Assembly (NCBI GenBank): GCA_039962225.1
Contig: JAMPKV010000034.1
Location: forward strand, 1 to 57,050
Direction: 5' to 3'
DNA length: 57,050 bases
From: Microcoleus sp. AS-A8
Lineage (GTDB): Bacteria > Cyanobacteriota > Cyanobacteriia > Cyanobacteriales > Coleofasciculaceae
The position numbers were made by a program, and so were the translations under genes. Position 1 is the first letter of the stretch. Every line of letters starts with the position of its first letter. This document shows, piece by piece, positions 7,254-57,036 of this stretch. The notes beneath the pieces are model-generated. The model was not told the origin of the DNA. It was given only the letters and a program-made list of their open reading frames with translations, and searched no databases.

Positions 7254-7402
7254 ATTAAACCCAACTTGTCTATGGTTAGGGTCTTTATTTAAGCTGACCC
7301 CATTGGAAAAATTAAACCCAACTTATGTATGGTTAGGGTCTTTATTTAAGCTGACCCTATTTGCAGTTTCATGCTCAGGGTCTTTATTTAAGCTGACCTT
7401 TG
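7254..7402. repeat. Three direct repeats with core AGGGTCTTTATTTAAGCTGA
   Basis: Two 49-bp units (7254-7302 and 7311-7359, 46 of 49 identical) are followed by a shorter third copy. The 22-bp core occurs at 7278-7299, 7335-7356 and 7377-7398, spaced 57 and 42 bp apart. In each copy GGGTC and GACC(C) flank an AT-rich centre, so each could fold into a small hairpin. The repeats fill the gap between the convergent kinase and oxidase genes. Confidence 0.8.
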
Positions 7403-21446: not shown

Positions 21447-22832
<1,386 letters not shown>

Positions 22833-22840
22833 CTATTAAG

Positions 22841-22918
22841 AGCTTCCCTCCGCCGGTATTAACCGGACTCAGGTGCAAAGGGTGTAATCTCAGCCTGGTT
22901 GCTCAGGCACCCCTAGCT
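22841..22918 (-). ncRNA. TPP riboswitch (THI element) of thiC
   Basis: Reading the minus strand from about 22918: GGGGTGCC, then GGCTGAGAT, ACCC, CCTGA, the GGTTAATACC hairpin and GGCGGAGGGA. These are the conserved parts of the thiamine pyrophosphate aptamer in correct order. The aptamer ends about 20 bases before the thiC ATG, so it probably controls translation start by hiding the GAGGGA-type region, although termination cannot be excluded. Confidence 0.93.
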
Positions 22919-23114
22919 ATGGTTGAGGATTGTATCACCCTAATTGGGCGGATTGGACTAGGTTGGGGAATTTTTAACGAATTGAGGTAATTCGTAATAG
23001 GGGGGAGTGTTTGGGAGTCTGGGATGATGGAGGGCGATCGCATTTTGGTGAGCATTGAGTTATCAGGCTAAAGTTGAGGGAAGATAAGTTAGCCCAATCT
23101 GTGAATGCATATAT

Positions 23115-29564: not shown

Positions 29565-29585
29565 ATGGGTAGGATGCGATCGCTC
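29565..29585. repeat. 21-bp direct repeat, left boundary of small island
   Basis: The sequence begins ATGGGTAGGATG and ends GCGATCGCTC (with HIP1). An identical 21-bp copy lies at 31820-31840. Together they bracket 2234 bp holding five small genes. The flanking bases differ, so the match is exactly 21 bp. Confidence 0.8.
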
Positions 29586-29603
29586 GATACAATTGACCAG
29601 GAT

Positions 29604-29993
29604 TCAGAATCCGAGGGCTGAGTCGCCTGATGTTTGCTCGTTCCAAAATTTATCCCAGCGTTTTGTCCAAATTTTGCACAAACATGGGTGATATTCCTCG
29701 TCGTACTGCTTTTTGTGCTGTTTGTAGTCGTCTTCAATCGCAAGCCACAAGCAGCGCAGTTGTTGCCAGGTGGAACACTTTTGAATCTGACAAGCAACGG
29801 CATAAAGCCACTGTCGTAATTTGCGATAGCTGATGAATTGTCCGCCCTTATCAGTGCGATGGACGAAGAGGACGTATGCCCAACATTCGACGCGCACAAT
29901 TTGGTGTTTGGGCATTTTTAGCAATTTGGCGATGCAACTGACGGTGATGCGGAATTTTTGAGCGGGTTGGAGACGGCGAAATAAAGGGGTCAT
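29604..29993 (-). CDS. Unknown 129-aa protein of the 29.6-31.8 kb island
   Basis: No family was recognised. The protein is basic and rich in Trp and Cys (for example VECWAYVLFVHRTDKGG, RQWLYAVACQIQKC, HPCLCKIWTKRWDKFW), with two helical parts and a Cys-x-Cys near the C-terminus. Its start codon overlaps the stop of the upstream 185-aa gene (ATGA, 29990-29993), so the two are translationally coupled. It lies just inside the left 21-bp repeat. Confidence 0.55.
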   Translation of the reverse strand: MTPLFRRLQPAQKFRITVSCIAKLLKMPKHQIVRVECWAYVLFVHRTDKGGQFISYRKLRQWLYAVACQIQKCSTWQQLRCLWLAIEDDYKQHKKQYDEEYHPCLCKIWTKRWDKFWNEQTSGDSALGF

Positions 29994-30547
29994 GATGGCT
30001 TCACTTCATCTGTAGATGTGAGTTCGTTGGGTACATCAAAAAGAACTTCAAATCCAGCCGCAGGGATATAGCGCTTCAGGAATCTGAGATGGTCTTCGGC
30101 ATCCTGGCGGTTACGAAACCTGGCAACTGTGTACCGTCGGGCGTCGGGTAGGAGTCGAATAATTGCCCAAGGACGAGAGTAATCTTCTGCTTGCGAAAGG
30201 TGTTGAGATGATGTTGTCTTGATTTCCCCTCTGATGCGGTTTAAGGTGTTTTCAATGAGTTGCCACAGTTGGGTTCTGGCTGAGCTGGTCTCATTGGGGA
30301 TGAGGCTCCAATCCGCGATCGGCGAGGGTGCGAATGTGAGAATGTAATCTTCCTGACCCTCTTTGGAGAGTTTCCAGGATAGGCGTCGAGTTTGTTTGCG
30401 GCATTGGTATCCGTGTTGGCGTAGATTTGCACAAATGCAGTCGCCTGACGCTCGAAGACTCGCTAACGCTGCGCTATCTGATTGGAGGCGCAGCCAGTCA
30501 GAGTGTTTCATAGGAAAATTTGGATAATAAAGGTCTAGCGATCGCAT
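29990..30547 (-). CDS. Unknown protein with C-terminal 'RPWAIIRLLP' module
   Basis: The C-terminal 60 residues (YSRPWAIIRLLPDARRY, ARFRNRQDAEDHLRFLKRYIP) match a stand-alone 66-aa protein at 42918-43118. The N-terminal part is variable; a stretch SDSAALASLRASGD lies over DNA resembling a dispersed palindromic repeat. Function is unknown; the module may be a small adaptor or nucleic-acid-binding domain. An ATG at 30511 (codon 13) is the better start because the duplicated upstream region keeps it. The gene is divergent from the HTH gene at 30733. Confidence 0.6.
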   Translation of the reverse strand: MRSLDLYYPNFPMKHSDWLRLQSDSAALASLRASGDCICANLRQHGYQCRKQTRRLSWKLSKEGQEDYILTFAPSPIADWSLIPNETSSARTQLWQLIENTLNRIRGEIKTTSSQHLSQAEDYSRPWAIIRLLPDARRYTVARFRNRQDAEDHLRFLKRYIPAAGFEVLFDVPNELTSTDEVKPS

Positions 30548-30626
30548 TTAAAAGAGCGATCGCCCATGCAGGTTGCACCACACAGCAATTCACTGTGCTT
30601 GCAAAGCGAACAATCCGAAATGGTGA
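30503..30626. repeat. Direct repeat copy 1, divergent regulatory region
   Basis: GTGTTTCATAGGAAAATTTGG (30503-30523, read with one spacer base fewer) and a 51-bp block (30576-30626, starting CACCACACAG, 48 of 51 identical to 31071-31121) recur 488-495 bp further on. The left end covers the first codons of the 185-aa gene on the minus strand. Confidence 0.8.
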
Positions 30627-30702
30627 TACCTTTCGTAGAGAAGACGGGGAAACAAGAAGCGATCAACTTCGCCTAGTTTCCCCCTTGTTTTCTTGTTGGT
30701 TA

Positions 30703-30721
30703 ATGACCCAGGGTGGGTCAT
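30703..30721. promoter_or_regulatory. Palindrome ATGACCCA-GGG-TGGGTCAT
   Basis: Two perfect 8-bp arms with a 3-bp spacer, ending 11 bp before the ATG of the HTH gene at 30733. The position and shape fit an operator for that regulator, or a hairpin in its leader. Confidence 0.5.
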
Positions 30722-30732
30722 CAATAGCTAAA

Positions 30733-30978
30733 ATGGTAGACGATAAGAATTTAAATTTCAACCCCAATGTGCCAACTTGGAAGCAAGTTCGCGAACGCCT
30801 GGGAATGACTCAGGAAGAGTTCGCGCAAGCGGTCGGTTTATCACGCAATACGATTGGTCGGTACGAGCGGGGCGAACATCACCGTCTTACGCTTTCCGCT
30901 TCTCAAATAAAGCGGTTAGTTGAGCTGATGGAGCAAGCAGGCATATCGATCAAAGACCTTCCTGATGACATTGAGTAA
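30733..30978 (+). CDS. XRE/Cro-type HTH regulator 1 of the island
   Basis: The 81-residue protein has a clear helix-turn-helix: VRERLGMTQEEFAQAVGLSRNTIGRYERGEHHRLTLSASQIKRL. It ends in the acidic tail ISIKDLPDDIE, similar to the tails of the next two HTH proteins. I chose the ATG at 30733; a longer open frame from 30520 covers a duplicated non-coding region and is unlikely to be translated. It is divergent from the 185-aa gene and the likely regulator of that promoter. Confidence 0.75.
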   Translation: MVDDKNLNFNPNVPTWKQVRERLGMTQEEFAQAVGLSRNTIGRYERGEHHRLTLSASQIKRLVELMEQAGISIKDLPDDIE

Positions 30979-30990
30979 TTGAACCCTGTA

Positions 30991-31121
30991 GTGTTTCATA
31001 GGAAAAATTTGGCTAATGATGGTCTGATTGGTAGATCGCCCGTTTTCATGCGATCGCTCAGGCAAGTTGACACCACACAGTAGTTCACTGTGCTGGCAAA
31101 GCGAACAATCCGAAATGGTGA
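30991..31121. repeat. Direct repeat copy 2, upstream of HTH gene 2
   Basis: This copy keeps the GTGTTTCATAGG start and the conserved 51-bp block (31071-31121), including the inverted repeat CACAGT-AGTTC-ACTGTG (31075-31091 region). The 488-bp offset means the first HTH gene lies between the two copies, as if a regulator plus its promoter had been duplicated in tandem. Confidence 0.8.
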
Positions 31122-31148
31122 ACTACGACAAAATGAGACACTAGAACG

Positions 31149-31191
31149 AAGGGCAGCTCTGCACCTGTTTTAATTCAGGCTGTCTGCCCTT
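31149..31191 (+). promoter_or_regulatory. Hairpin AAGGGCAG/CTGCCCTT in leader of HTH gene 2
   Basis: Perfect 8-bp arms (31149-31156, 31184-31191) enclose an inner pair CCTG/CAGG. It lies 50 bp before the HTH gene at 31242 and could end an upstream transcript or serve as a leader structure. Confidence 0.45.
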
Positions 31192-31241
31192 TGCTCTGAT
31201 CAATAACGCCATTATGTCGTGGCATTACAGCAGATGTCAAT

Positions 31242-31520
31242 ATGTCGCGTCAAAGTTATAGAATGAAGAAAGACAGAAGACCTCAAGAAAGTGAGTCACT
31301 TATAGAGACCCTGAGGATTGAGCGGACAAATTTATCTCAGACTGAATTTGCAGTGCAGTGCGGCATTCCATTGCGTACCTATCAGCGGTGGATTGCCGGA
31401 GTAACGGAAGCAAAACTAACGCCTCTTCAATGGAAAGCAGTGATGCAACTGTTGCAAATCCAGTCACTTGACGAAATACCGGATGACTTTGGGCCAATAA
31501 ACCAAATATCCAAGGAATGA
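31242..31520 (+). CDS. HTH regulator 2 of the island
   Basis: The 92-residue protein has an HTH region LSQTEFAVQCGIPLRTYQRWIAG followed by TEAKLTPLQWKAVMQLL and the tail IPDDFGP. It is a clear paralogue of the next gene: both share LRIERT-LTQ/SQ-EFAVxCGIP-RWIAG-TEAKL. A second ATG at 31263 is possible. The pattern (RWIAG, TEAKL, LPDDF) recurs in many small cyanobacterial HTH proteins of unknown target. Confidence 0.7.
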   Translation: MSRQSYRMKKDRRPQESESLIETLRIERTNLSQTEFAVQCGIPLRTYQRWIAGVTEAKLTPLQWKAVMQLLQIQSLDEIPDDFGPINQISKE

Positions 31521-31537
31521 TGCTTAGCTAGTATGCA

Positions 31538-31810
31538 ATGACTCAAAAAAATAAAAGGCGAAAACAGGCAAGCGATTCAGCTTGGGAAGCGTTGAGAATT
31601 GAACGAACCACTTTAACCCAAGACGAGTTAGCGGTACACTGCGGCATTCCCCGTTCTACTTACCAACGGTGGATTGCTGGAAAGACTGAGGCTAAACTGA
31701 GCATTCCGCAACTTAAGAAGCTGTGCCAACTGCTGGGAATTGAGCGTATTGATGAGCTACCTGATGACTTTAGTCCGCCGAACCAGTCCCAGTCATTTGA
31801 TGAGGGTTAG
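31538..31810 (+). CDS. HTH regulator 3 of the island
   Basis: The 90-residue protein has LTQDELAVHCGIPRSTYQRWIAGKTEAKLS as its HTH region and the LPDDFSPPNQ tail. It begins 17 bp after the stop of its paralogue and is the last gene before the right 21-bp repeat. Genes 2 and 3 are probably one transcript. Confidence 0.7.
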   Translation: MTQKNKRRKQASDSAWEALRIERTTLTQDELAVHCGIPRSTYQRWIAGKTEAKLSIPQLKKLCQLLGIERIDELPDDFSPPNQSQSFDEG

Positions 31811-31819
31811 GTGCTTTAG

Positions 31820-31840
31820 ATGGGTAGGATGCGATCGCTC
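31820..31840. repeat. 21-bp direct repeat, right boundary of small island
   Basis: Identical over 21 bp to 29565-29585. It lies 10 bp after the stop of HTH gene 3 and 165 bp before mtnW. Its match could be a target-site or attachment-site duplication, or a recombination scar. Confidence 0.8.
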
Positions 31841-42917: not shown

Positions 42918-43118
42918 TTAAGTATTTGCCATCTTGTCAGTACTTTCCATCATGGGGTCAAAGATAATGCTGTAGTCGGCAGTTGGTGTCATTTTCCTCA
43001 GCACCCGGAGATGTTCTTCAGCATCATTTCGACGACGAGAGCAGGCTACTACACGGCTTTGTGCTTGCGGGAGGTGACGGACAATGCACCAAGGGGACAG
43101 TCGATCTTTGTAAGTCAT
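42918..43118 (-). CDS. Small stand-alone 'SPWCIVRHLP' module protein, 66 aa
   Basis: The whole protein matches the C-terminal 60 residues of the 185-aa island protein at 29990: LSPWCIVRHLPQAQSRVVA, then RRRNDAEEHLRVLRKMTP and FDP. GGGAGGG (43123-43129) precedes the ATG, so the start is well supported. Its divergent neighbour is an HTH gene, as in the island. Function unknown; the basic patch suggests nucleic-acid or protein binding. Confidence 0.65.
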   Translation of the reverse strand: MTYKDRLSPWCIVRHLPQAQSRVVACSRRRNDAEEHLRVLRKMTPTADYSIIFDPMMESTDKMANT

Positions 43119-43323: not shown

Positions 43324-43536
43324 ATGGGTCTAGTTAGGCTGCGAATACGCGATCTGGCTGACGAGAAGGGTTGGACGCTCAAAGAAGTTGCTGCACGGGC
43401 AGGAATTCCCTACAGCACAGTGACCACATATGCGCGATCGGCGGGGATGGCAACGGTAGATGTGACGGCGCTGCAAAAACTAGCTCGCACGTTTGATGTA
43501 TTGATGGAAGATTTAATTGAAACCGTGCAAGATTAG
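43324..43536 (+). CDS. XRE/Cro-type HTH regulator, 70 aa
   Basis: The protein is a single HTH domain: IRDLADEKGWTLKEVAARAGIPYSTVTTYAR, then LQKLARTFDVLMEDLIE. AAGGG precedes the ATG, so the start is well supported. It faces the 66-aa module gene across about 200 bp that contains its likely operator. It is not close in sequence to the three HTH genes of the island, although the arrangement is the same. Confidence 0.82.
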   Translation: MGLVRLRIRDLADEKGWTLKEVAARAGIPYSTVTTYARSAGMATVDVTALQKLARTFDVLMEDLIETVQD

Positions 43537-43620: not shown

Positions 43621-43680
43621 GGGGTGACAACTAGGGAGAAACTTTACAATAGCCTGTGTCATCAGGCTTGGTGTAAGTCA
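43621..43680 (+). repeat. 60-bp dispersed repeat, copy 1
   Basis: GGGGTGACAACTAGGG starts a 60-bp block that recurs at 56977-57036 with 56 of 60 identical bases, same orientation. It contains the hairpin AGCCTG-TGTCAT-CAGGCT. The block between here and the next gene (to 44012) carries no supported gene. Confidence 0.85.
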
Positions 43681-56976: not shown

Positions 56977-57036
56977 GGGGTGACAACTAGGGGTAAACTT
57001 TAGAATAGCCTGTGTCATCAGGCTTGGTGTGAGTCA
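56977..57036 (+). repeat. 60-bp dispersed repeat, copy 2
   Basis: Same block as 43621-43680 with four differences, including the hairpin AGCCTG/CAGGCT. It sits directly after the truncated nuclease gene, close to the right window edge, so what it belongs to cannot be seen. Confidence 0.85.

Follow-up and report, generated by a model that had tools for sequence, protein, structure and literature searches.

The window analysed here, a stretch of 57,050 nucleotides (positions 1 to 57,050 of contig JAMPKV010000034.1 from Microcoleus sp. AS-A8), contains at positions 29565 to 31840 an island of five small genes: p129 and p185, which encode proteins of 129 and 185 amino acids (aa) from families without a library name, on the minus strand, and three XRE-type helix-turn-helix (HTH) genes of 81, 92 and 90 aa (h81, h92 and h90) on the plus strand. 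Judged from its sequence, the island is probably an autoregulated divergent repressor-operon module of a multicopy cyanobacterial family; its five genes are one of many copies of this module, whose repressor genes diverge from two small genes and probably regulate their expression. An initial annotation of this DNA had described two coupled genes of 129 and 185 aa, three related regulators, a divergent gene plan and duplicated promoter DNA, all of which are borne out, and had interpreted them as a self-regulated module that was once mobile. Self-regulation is supported by the arrangement of the island, by the conserved divergent pairing and by palindromes before the regulators, and can be extended to a module family that the libraries do not name. 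Mobility by way of the 21-bp repeat at the island ends is not supported. The features that carry the argument are listed below, with ratios of nonsynonymous to synonymous substitution (dN/dS) relative to the one genome available for comparison within the genus (G001, hereafter the sister).

29604 to 29993, minus strand: p129, 129-aa protein, dN/dS 0.22
29990 to 30547, minus strand: p185, an N domain followed by a C domain, dN/dS 0.36
30447 to 30476: 30-bp in-frame insertion in p185
30576 to 30626: first copy of a 51-bp repeat, candidate regulatory DNA, with the inverted repeat CACAG-N7-CTGTG at 30581 to 30597
30703 to 30721: perfect palindrome ATGACCCA-GGG-TGGGTCAT (ATGACCCAGGGTGGGTCAT) just before h81, candidate operator
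30733 to 30978, plus strand: h81, 81-aa XRE (HTH_3) regulator divergent from p185-p129 (mechanical open reading frame, 152 aa)
31071 to 31121: second copy of the 51-bp repeat, upstream of the second HTH gene (h92), with its inverted repeat at 31076 to 31092
31242 to 31520, plus strand: h92, 92-aa XRE-type regulator, absent from the sister
31538 to 31810, plus strand: h90, 90-aa XRE regulator, 62.5% identical to h92, dN/dS 0.145

The two genes of the minus strand overlap by 4 bases. The C domain of p185 has a predicted beta-beta-alpha-beta arrangement and carries the motif W-I-R-L-P..VARF..R.DAE.H, and the true start of the gene is likely at 30511 (MKHSDWLRL), where its paralogues have it. Purifying selection acts on all four genes common to both species (p129, p185, h81 and h90; dN/dS 0.055 to 0.36), with the value of 0.055 belonging to h81, which is 96% identical to the sister's copy. 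The 30-bp insertion in p185, missed by the initial annotation, is lacking in the sister; sequence resembling it occurs at two further sites of the genome.

The divergent plan is conserved well beyond the island. At 34 of the 57 loci with full upstream DNA, the 1.6 kb before p129 contain an HTH gene on the opposite strand, as compared with 1/57 for same-strand HTH genes upstream and, among 61 loci, none on the same strand and 2 on the opposite strand downstream. A divergent HTH neighbour also accompanies distant relatives of p129 (13/22 loci). The second member of the putative operon shows the same order, as a C-domain gene stands directly upstream of p129 at 29/67 loci and downstream at 1/67. 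The regulators found with the HTH models are XRE-type; the partner on pMIC7113.03 is a ribbon-helix-helix (RHH) protein, locus L133 has an RHH-like gene, just under the Pfam cut-off, in place of the HTH gene, and L125 has a weak HTH match. The evolutionary distances of p129 and its regulators are correlated when all loci are taken (r 0.40, n = 35), perhaps through species relatedness, but not among the paralogues of the Microcoleus genome itself; for p129 and the C domain the two coefficients are 0.43 (n = 38) and 0.33 (n = 9, p 0.06). We read this apparent, partial co-evolution of p129 and its regulators as regulator swapping.

The island is one of many such loci, as the check proposed in the initial annotation, a search for the same gene set elsewhere, reveals. 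Within the fetched stretches of the same genome p129 has matches at 14 loci, one of them broken (L070), and a separate scoring covered 11 candidates from this genome, every one of which matched; in the sister 13 matches were counted, including one short fragment and three long relatives of the A7 type. For p185 there are 25 matches in the genome, often to the C domain alone, and in some cases a single gene accounts for two of them. This protein is a fusion: at L059, L071, L072 and L137 the N domain and the C domain are each encoded by a small gene of their own. A pattern-based scan of named genomes yielded 67 loci with p129, all titled as cyanobacteria, and 29 of the 386 genomes sampled across the phylum, the present one included, have p129 matches, a lower bound since few candidates were scored per genome. 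Seven of these are at E <1e-37 and the rest are distant relatives. The latter, of 145-230 aa, are homologous to p129 by profile comparison, with probabilities of 99.6, 97.3 and 98.7 for three groups of 14, 3 and 4 sequences, and the p129 superfamily is found in several cyanobacterial families. Relatives of p185 occur on three plasmids of Allocoleopsis and on plasmids of Oscillatoria and Brasilonema, one set beside ParA/ParG; no plasmid relatives of p129 were found. At L142 (6442-6852) the C domain is fused to a 'QQALDDFGIT' domain, which on plasmids is a separate gene in the same row. Alignment A1 omitted the fragmentary copies L069 and L070; A3, used for folding, held 62 of 68 sequences, without L080, L100, the second copy of L110, the partial second copy of L121 and two readings of L090 with unknown residues; and A4 held 31 of 34, without the second copy of L090, L140 and L125. 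Literature searches turned up no description of the module, though one may exist.

Palindromes next to the repressor start provide candidate operators. The one at 30703 to 30721 is present at the island and, in a search of the window and the fetched loci, also in the sister, and such palindromes are enriched before other regulators as well: the 120 bp preceding the regulator contain a perfect palindrome with arms of at least 8 bp in 6 of 16 cases from the same genome (0.28 expected; additional HTH genes in tandem at L061 and L067 were left out) and in 5 of 30 cases from other genomes (0.47 expected). Most of them differ between copies, and the TACTAA...TTAGTA and CCTCTGAC types recur. The duplicated promoter DNA noted initially is the 51-bp repeat before the first and second HTH genes, whose copies are 94% identical and have shorter repeated neighbours alongside. 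Its core occurs twice in the genome, both times in the island.

Taken together, these arrangements suggest a mechanism in which the gene for a small DNA-binding repressor, usually XRE-type, is divergent from a small-gene operon, in this case that of p185 and p129. The repressor would most likely bind the intergenic DNA and the palindrome that precedes the start codon of its gene, thereby silencing both its own gene and the p185-p129 operon until a signal relieves the binding. As the palindromes mostly differ from copy to copy, the individual switches are probably insulated from each other. The operon probably encodes small binding proteins with a role as regulators or adaptors (a few relatives of p129 weakly match HTH_17), and such a role is more likely for p129 and p185 than that of a toxin. 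A close parallel is the XRE/Cro-CI divergon, in which a repressor gene is divergent from the operon it controls. The island has this layout: an XRE gene and an operon diverge from an intergenic region that contains palindromes. It differs from such divergons in that the putatively controlled genes belong to families unnamed in the libraries, in that no phage relatives were found and in that one genome holds many copies of the module with mostly different palindromes. It differs also from phage lysis-lysogeny switches, in which relatives in phages would be expected, as no relatives of p129 or p185 were found in viral contigs or phage records.

Several observations weigh against this reading of the island as an autoregulated divergent module. 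None of the four loci of the A7 type (200-230 aa) has an HTH neighbour, and no HTH gene was found with the models used at 22 of the 57 loci, which means that a linked repressor is not always necessary for p129; 19 of the 22 are Symploca contigs with p129 or C + p129 alone, and 20 of the 22 were inspected. One of the HTH models, c4, was itself built from genes near p129. The distances of p129 and its regulators are uncorrelated among the paralogues of the same genome (r -0.09, n = 9). As for the palindromes, a control stretch downstream of p129 is also somewhat enriched (5/63 as compared with 1.3 expected), h92 has no such palindrome upstream, and recurring palindromes such as those of the GCCTCTGAC type could be RNA hairpins.

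The history of the island can be approached through its surroundings. Its left neighbour is a DnaJ-TPR gene and its right neighbour an mtnW-like gene (PRK09549, 388.2 bits; TIGR03332, 334.6 bits; both below the curated cut-offs), largely as the initial annotation had it. In the sister the dnaJ-TPR gene, p129, p185, h81 and h90 stand in the same order and place, so that four of the five island genes are kept, h92 being absent. The initial annotation had named such conservation in place as the observation that would speak against mobility, and it is found here in the one genome able to show it. The repeat itself is as described, a perfect 21-mer, ATGGGTAGGATGCGATCGCTC, at both ends:

29565 to 29585: left 21-bp copy, containing the highly iterated palindrome 1 (HIP1) octamer GCGATCGC, 18 bp beyond the p129 stop; the sister matches at 20/21 positions
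31820 to 31840: right 21-bp copy, 9 bp beyond the h90 stop; not found in the sister, the sole genome able to test it

After h90 the sister DNA shares a few bases with the 21-mer and then differs, and this right edge is rearranged; loss of the right copy later in the sister is possible. Between h90 and mtnW the sister has two genes that the window lacks (L057, 6898-11246), which were read from the sequence, with no family search, as sensor-kinase/cyclase types. With the block in place in the sister and the right 21-mer not found there, the block is older than the split of the two species, and the repeat is not conserved with it. Outside the genus, 13 genomes of the family with a dnaJ-TPR orthologue have neither the island nor mtnW in the 5-1500 bp of DNA upstream (one offers 5 bp only, and one contains a 22-residue h81-like match at E 0.009), and at the mtnW loci of 20 genomes there is no dnaJ-TPR gene in flanks of up to 1.5 kb.

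The exact 21-mer has two copies in the 7.75 Mb genome, both flanking the island, and five further sites at up to 3 mismatches, four of them with an intact GCGATCGC; wide dispersal, which the initial annotation held would also count against a mobile origin, is thus not seen. As noted there, 13 bases beyond the HIP1 octamer match. HIP1 occurs 47 times in the window as compared with 0.55 expected, and in 1080 of the 1081 direct pairs of HIP1 sites the flanking match extends over 0-7 bases, the one exception being the island's pair with 13. Extrapolation from the decay of these matches gives about 0.005 pairs like that of the island per window, a rarity to be read as that of a pair chosen post hoc. 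The window contains six longer exact direct-repeat pairs (22-30 bp), one of which is the promoter repeat of the island, and another pair of 21 bp. Small dispersed repeats of cyanobacteria have reportedly been treated by Elhai et al. in 2008; the island resembles them in the HIP1 core of both 21-mers and in the small repeated insertion in p185, and differs in that the full 21-mer is not dispersed. Two further repeats of the window are an exact 27-bp direct repeat at 43648-43674 and 57004-57030, 13.4 kb apart, and tandem-like short exact repeats of 22-30 bp at 7271-7400.

That the five genes arrived as one unit, leaving the 21-mers as a target-site duplication or as a pair from site-specific recombination, is quite unlikely. 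The exact 21-mers do lie close to the block and nowhere else in the genome, the rearranged right edge of the sister would allow a lost copy, and a passage in PMC4390886 refers to some indication of a possible role of HIP1 in recombination. At the corresponding place the sister lacks two other family copies (L070 and L074), and relatives of p185 reside on plasmids, with a tyrosine recombinase near them on pMIC7113.01 and on contig C35 of the same genome. Against this stand the four genes and the left copy retained in the sister, where no right copy was found, and the lack of a recombinase within the island. The initial annotation had seen no transposase or integrase there, and neither the gene list nor family searches reveal a recombinase, while two tyrosine recombinase queries found no match in the window. 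The junction at L070 shows no target duplication, and L074, where neighbouring coding DNA is gone too, looks like a deletion. Terminal repeats of a mobile unit were sought and rejected, as the similarity of the same-genome paralogues to the island is confined to coding DNA or its vicinity and has no shared ends. Nor were fixed module ends seen at 21 Symploca loci, where most matching blocks consist of p129 or C + p129 and a few pairs reach ~500-600 bp further upstream. The matching 21-bp ends are real, but they are no proof that the island jumped here; most likely the repeat is incidental or a locally formed, HIP1-containing repeat and not the footprint of an arrival. HIP1-containing repeats in cyanobacteria should, as a warning, be taken as weak evidence for mobility.

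Two other explanations concern what the module does. A toxin-antitoxin-like addiction module, in which p129 and/or p185 would be toxic and the XRE or RHH protein an antitoxin-repressor, is unlikely, for all that the island shares with type II systems and their XRE or RHH antitoxins: small genes, a patchy and multicopy distribution, an exchangeable DNA-binding partner, turnover of copies, plasmid-borne relatives of p185, and an h81 that passes the cut-off of Pfam PF20432, 'Antitoxin Xre-like HTH' (32.2 as compared with 25.8 bits), though HTH_3 fits it better and the antitoxin models of NCBIfam stay below their cut-offs. The regulator is divergent and not co-directional, no toxin model in Pfam, NCBIfam, PHROG or PADLOC matches p129 or p185, many copies of p129 have no linked HTH gene, and phage records contain no matches. 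It is very unlikely that the module is left over from the control region of integrating elements, with p185 and p129 as accessory or excisionase-like factors of a tyrosine recombinase since lost. On C35 (L063, 2899-5855) a p185 relative belongs to an operon-like row with an HTH-like gene of 98 aa and a gene of 243 aa, and a tyrosine recombinase, at the end of the row, follows the p185 relative in the usual position of p129; part of this stretch, amounting to 19% of the query, matches pMIC7113.03 at 84% identity, and on pMIC7113.01 a recombinase lies 1.5 kb from a p185 relative. Weak matches to HTH_17 occur in 4 of 62 p129 members (best E 0.0059). Recombinases were, however, found at 2 of 174 loci, the same two whose recombinases served as queries, the p129 model has strands in the region where HTH_17 has its second helix, and a Foldseek search with p129 gave no PDB match at E<0.001.

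Turnover of the family has support separate from the 21-mer, in the two copies absent from the sister and in the plasmid-borne relatives of p185, and no involvement of the 21-mer was seen in either. Both flanks are conserved with the sister at the island, L059, L060 and L066, and one flank, within the DNA fetched, at L062, L069 and L073; L072 is scrambled. At L070 the sister has a clean junction without the module, with an 86% identical block lying 5.7 kb away. At L074 the DNA missing in the sister extends from the end of the HTH gene to the stop of p129; part of the neighbouring coding DNA is gone too, and 24 bp between are kept.

If the interpretation as an autoregulated divergent module is right, some filamentous cyanobacteria would hold about a dozen or more paralogous small switches from families that the libraries do not name. 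These would provide natural repressor-operator pairs and a practicable way to learn what the conserved orphan p129 superfamily does. A more far-reaching idea, which we regard as rather doubtful, is that these loci constitute an undescribed cyanobacterial class of partner-swapping modules, with exchangeable XRE or RHH repressors, mostly copy-specific operators, and a p129 superfamily of possibly new fold combined with a beta-beta-alpha-beta domain. Such modules would be common to chromosomes and plasmids and would serve as an addiction, segregation or recombination-control device, with a dozen or so insulated switches per genome.

Structure prediction and family searches bear on the two output proteins. 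For p129 of the window no model of Pfam, NCBIfam, PHROG or PADLOC matched; for p185 none passed the Pfam or NCBIfam cut-offs and nothing convincing emerged from PHROGs or PADLOC. The predicted structure of p129 (predicted local distance difference test score, pLDDT, 94) comprises short helices, three strands between residues 32 and 55, and then three helices, and that of p185 shows the C domain at high confidence and the rest poorly. Neither fold has a match at E<0.001 in the PDB or among viral predictions, and by sequence no PDB chain was found at E<=1. Among the relatives of p129, matches to NCBIfam GntI (12/62, best E 0.001) and Pfam HpaB_N (7/62, best E 0.023) were taken as chance, as were the sub-cut-off matches of p185 to BUD31, bax and phrog_2089. 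The HetP family (NF037966) was considered for p129 on account of a superficial likeness in a W...YR motif and was rejected, as profile comparison gave probabilities of 0.4% and 0.1%; HetP has no match in the genome.

The window harbors a second, smaller module of the same plan, missed by the initial annotation, in which a 66-aa C-domain gene (42918-43118, minus strand) is divergent from a 70-aa XRE HTH gene (43324-43536, plus strand). A thiamine pyrophosphate (TPP) riboswitch at 22828-22924 on the minus strand lies upstream of a 457-aa gene at 21447-22820.

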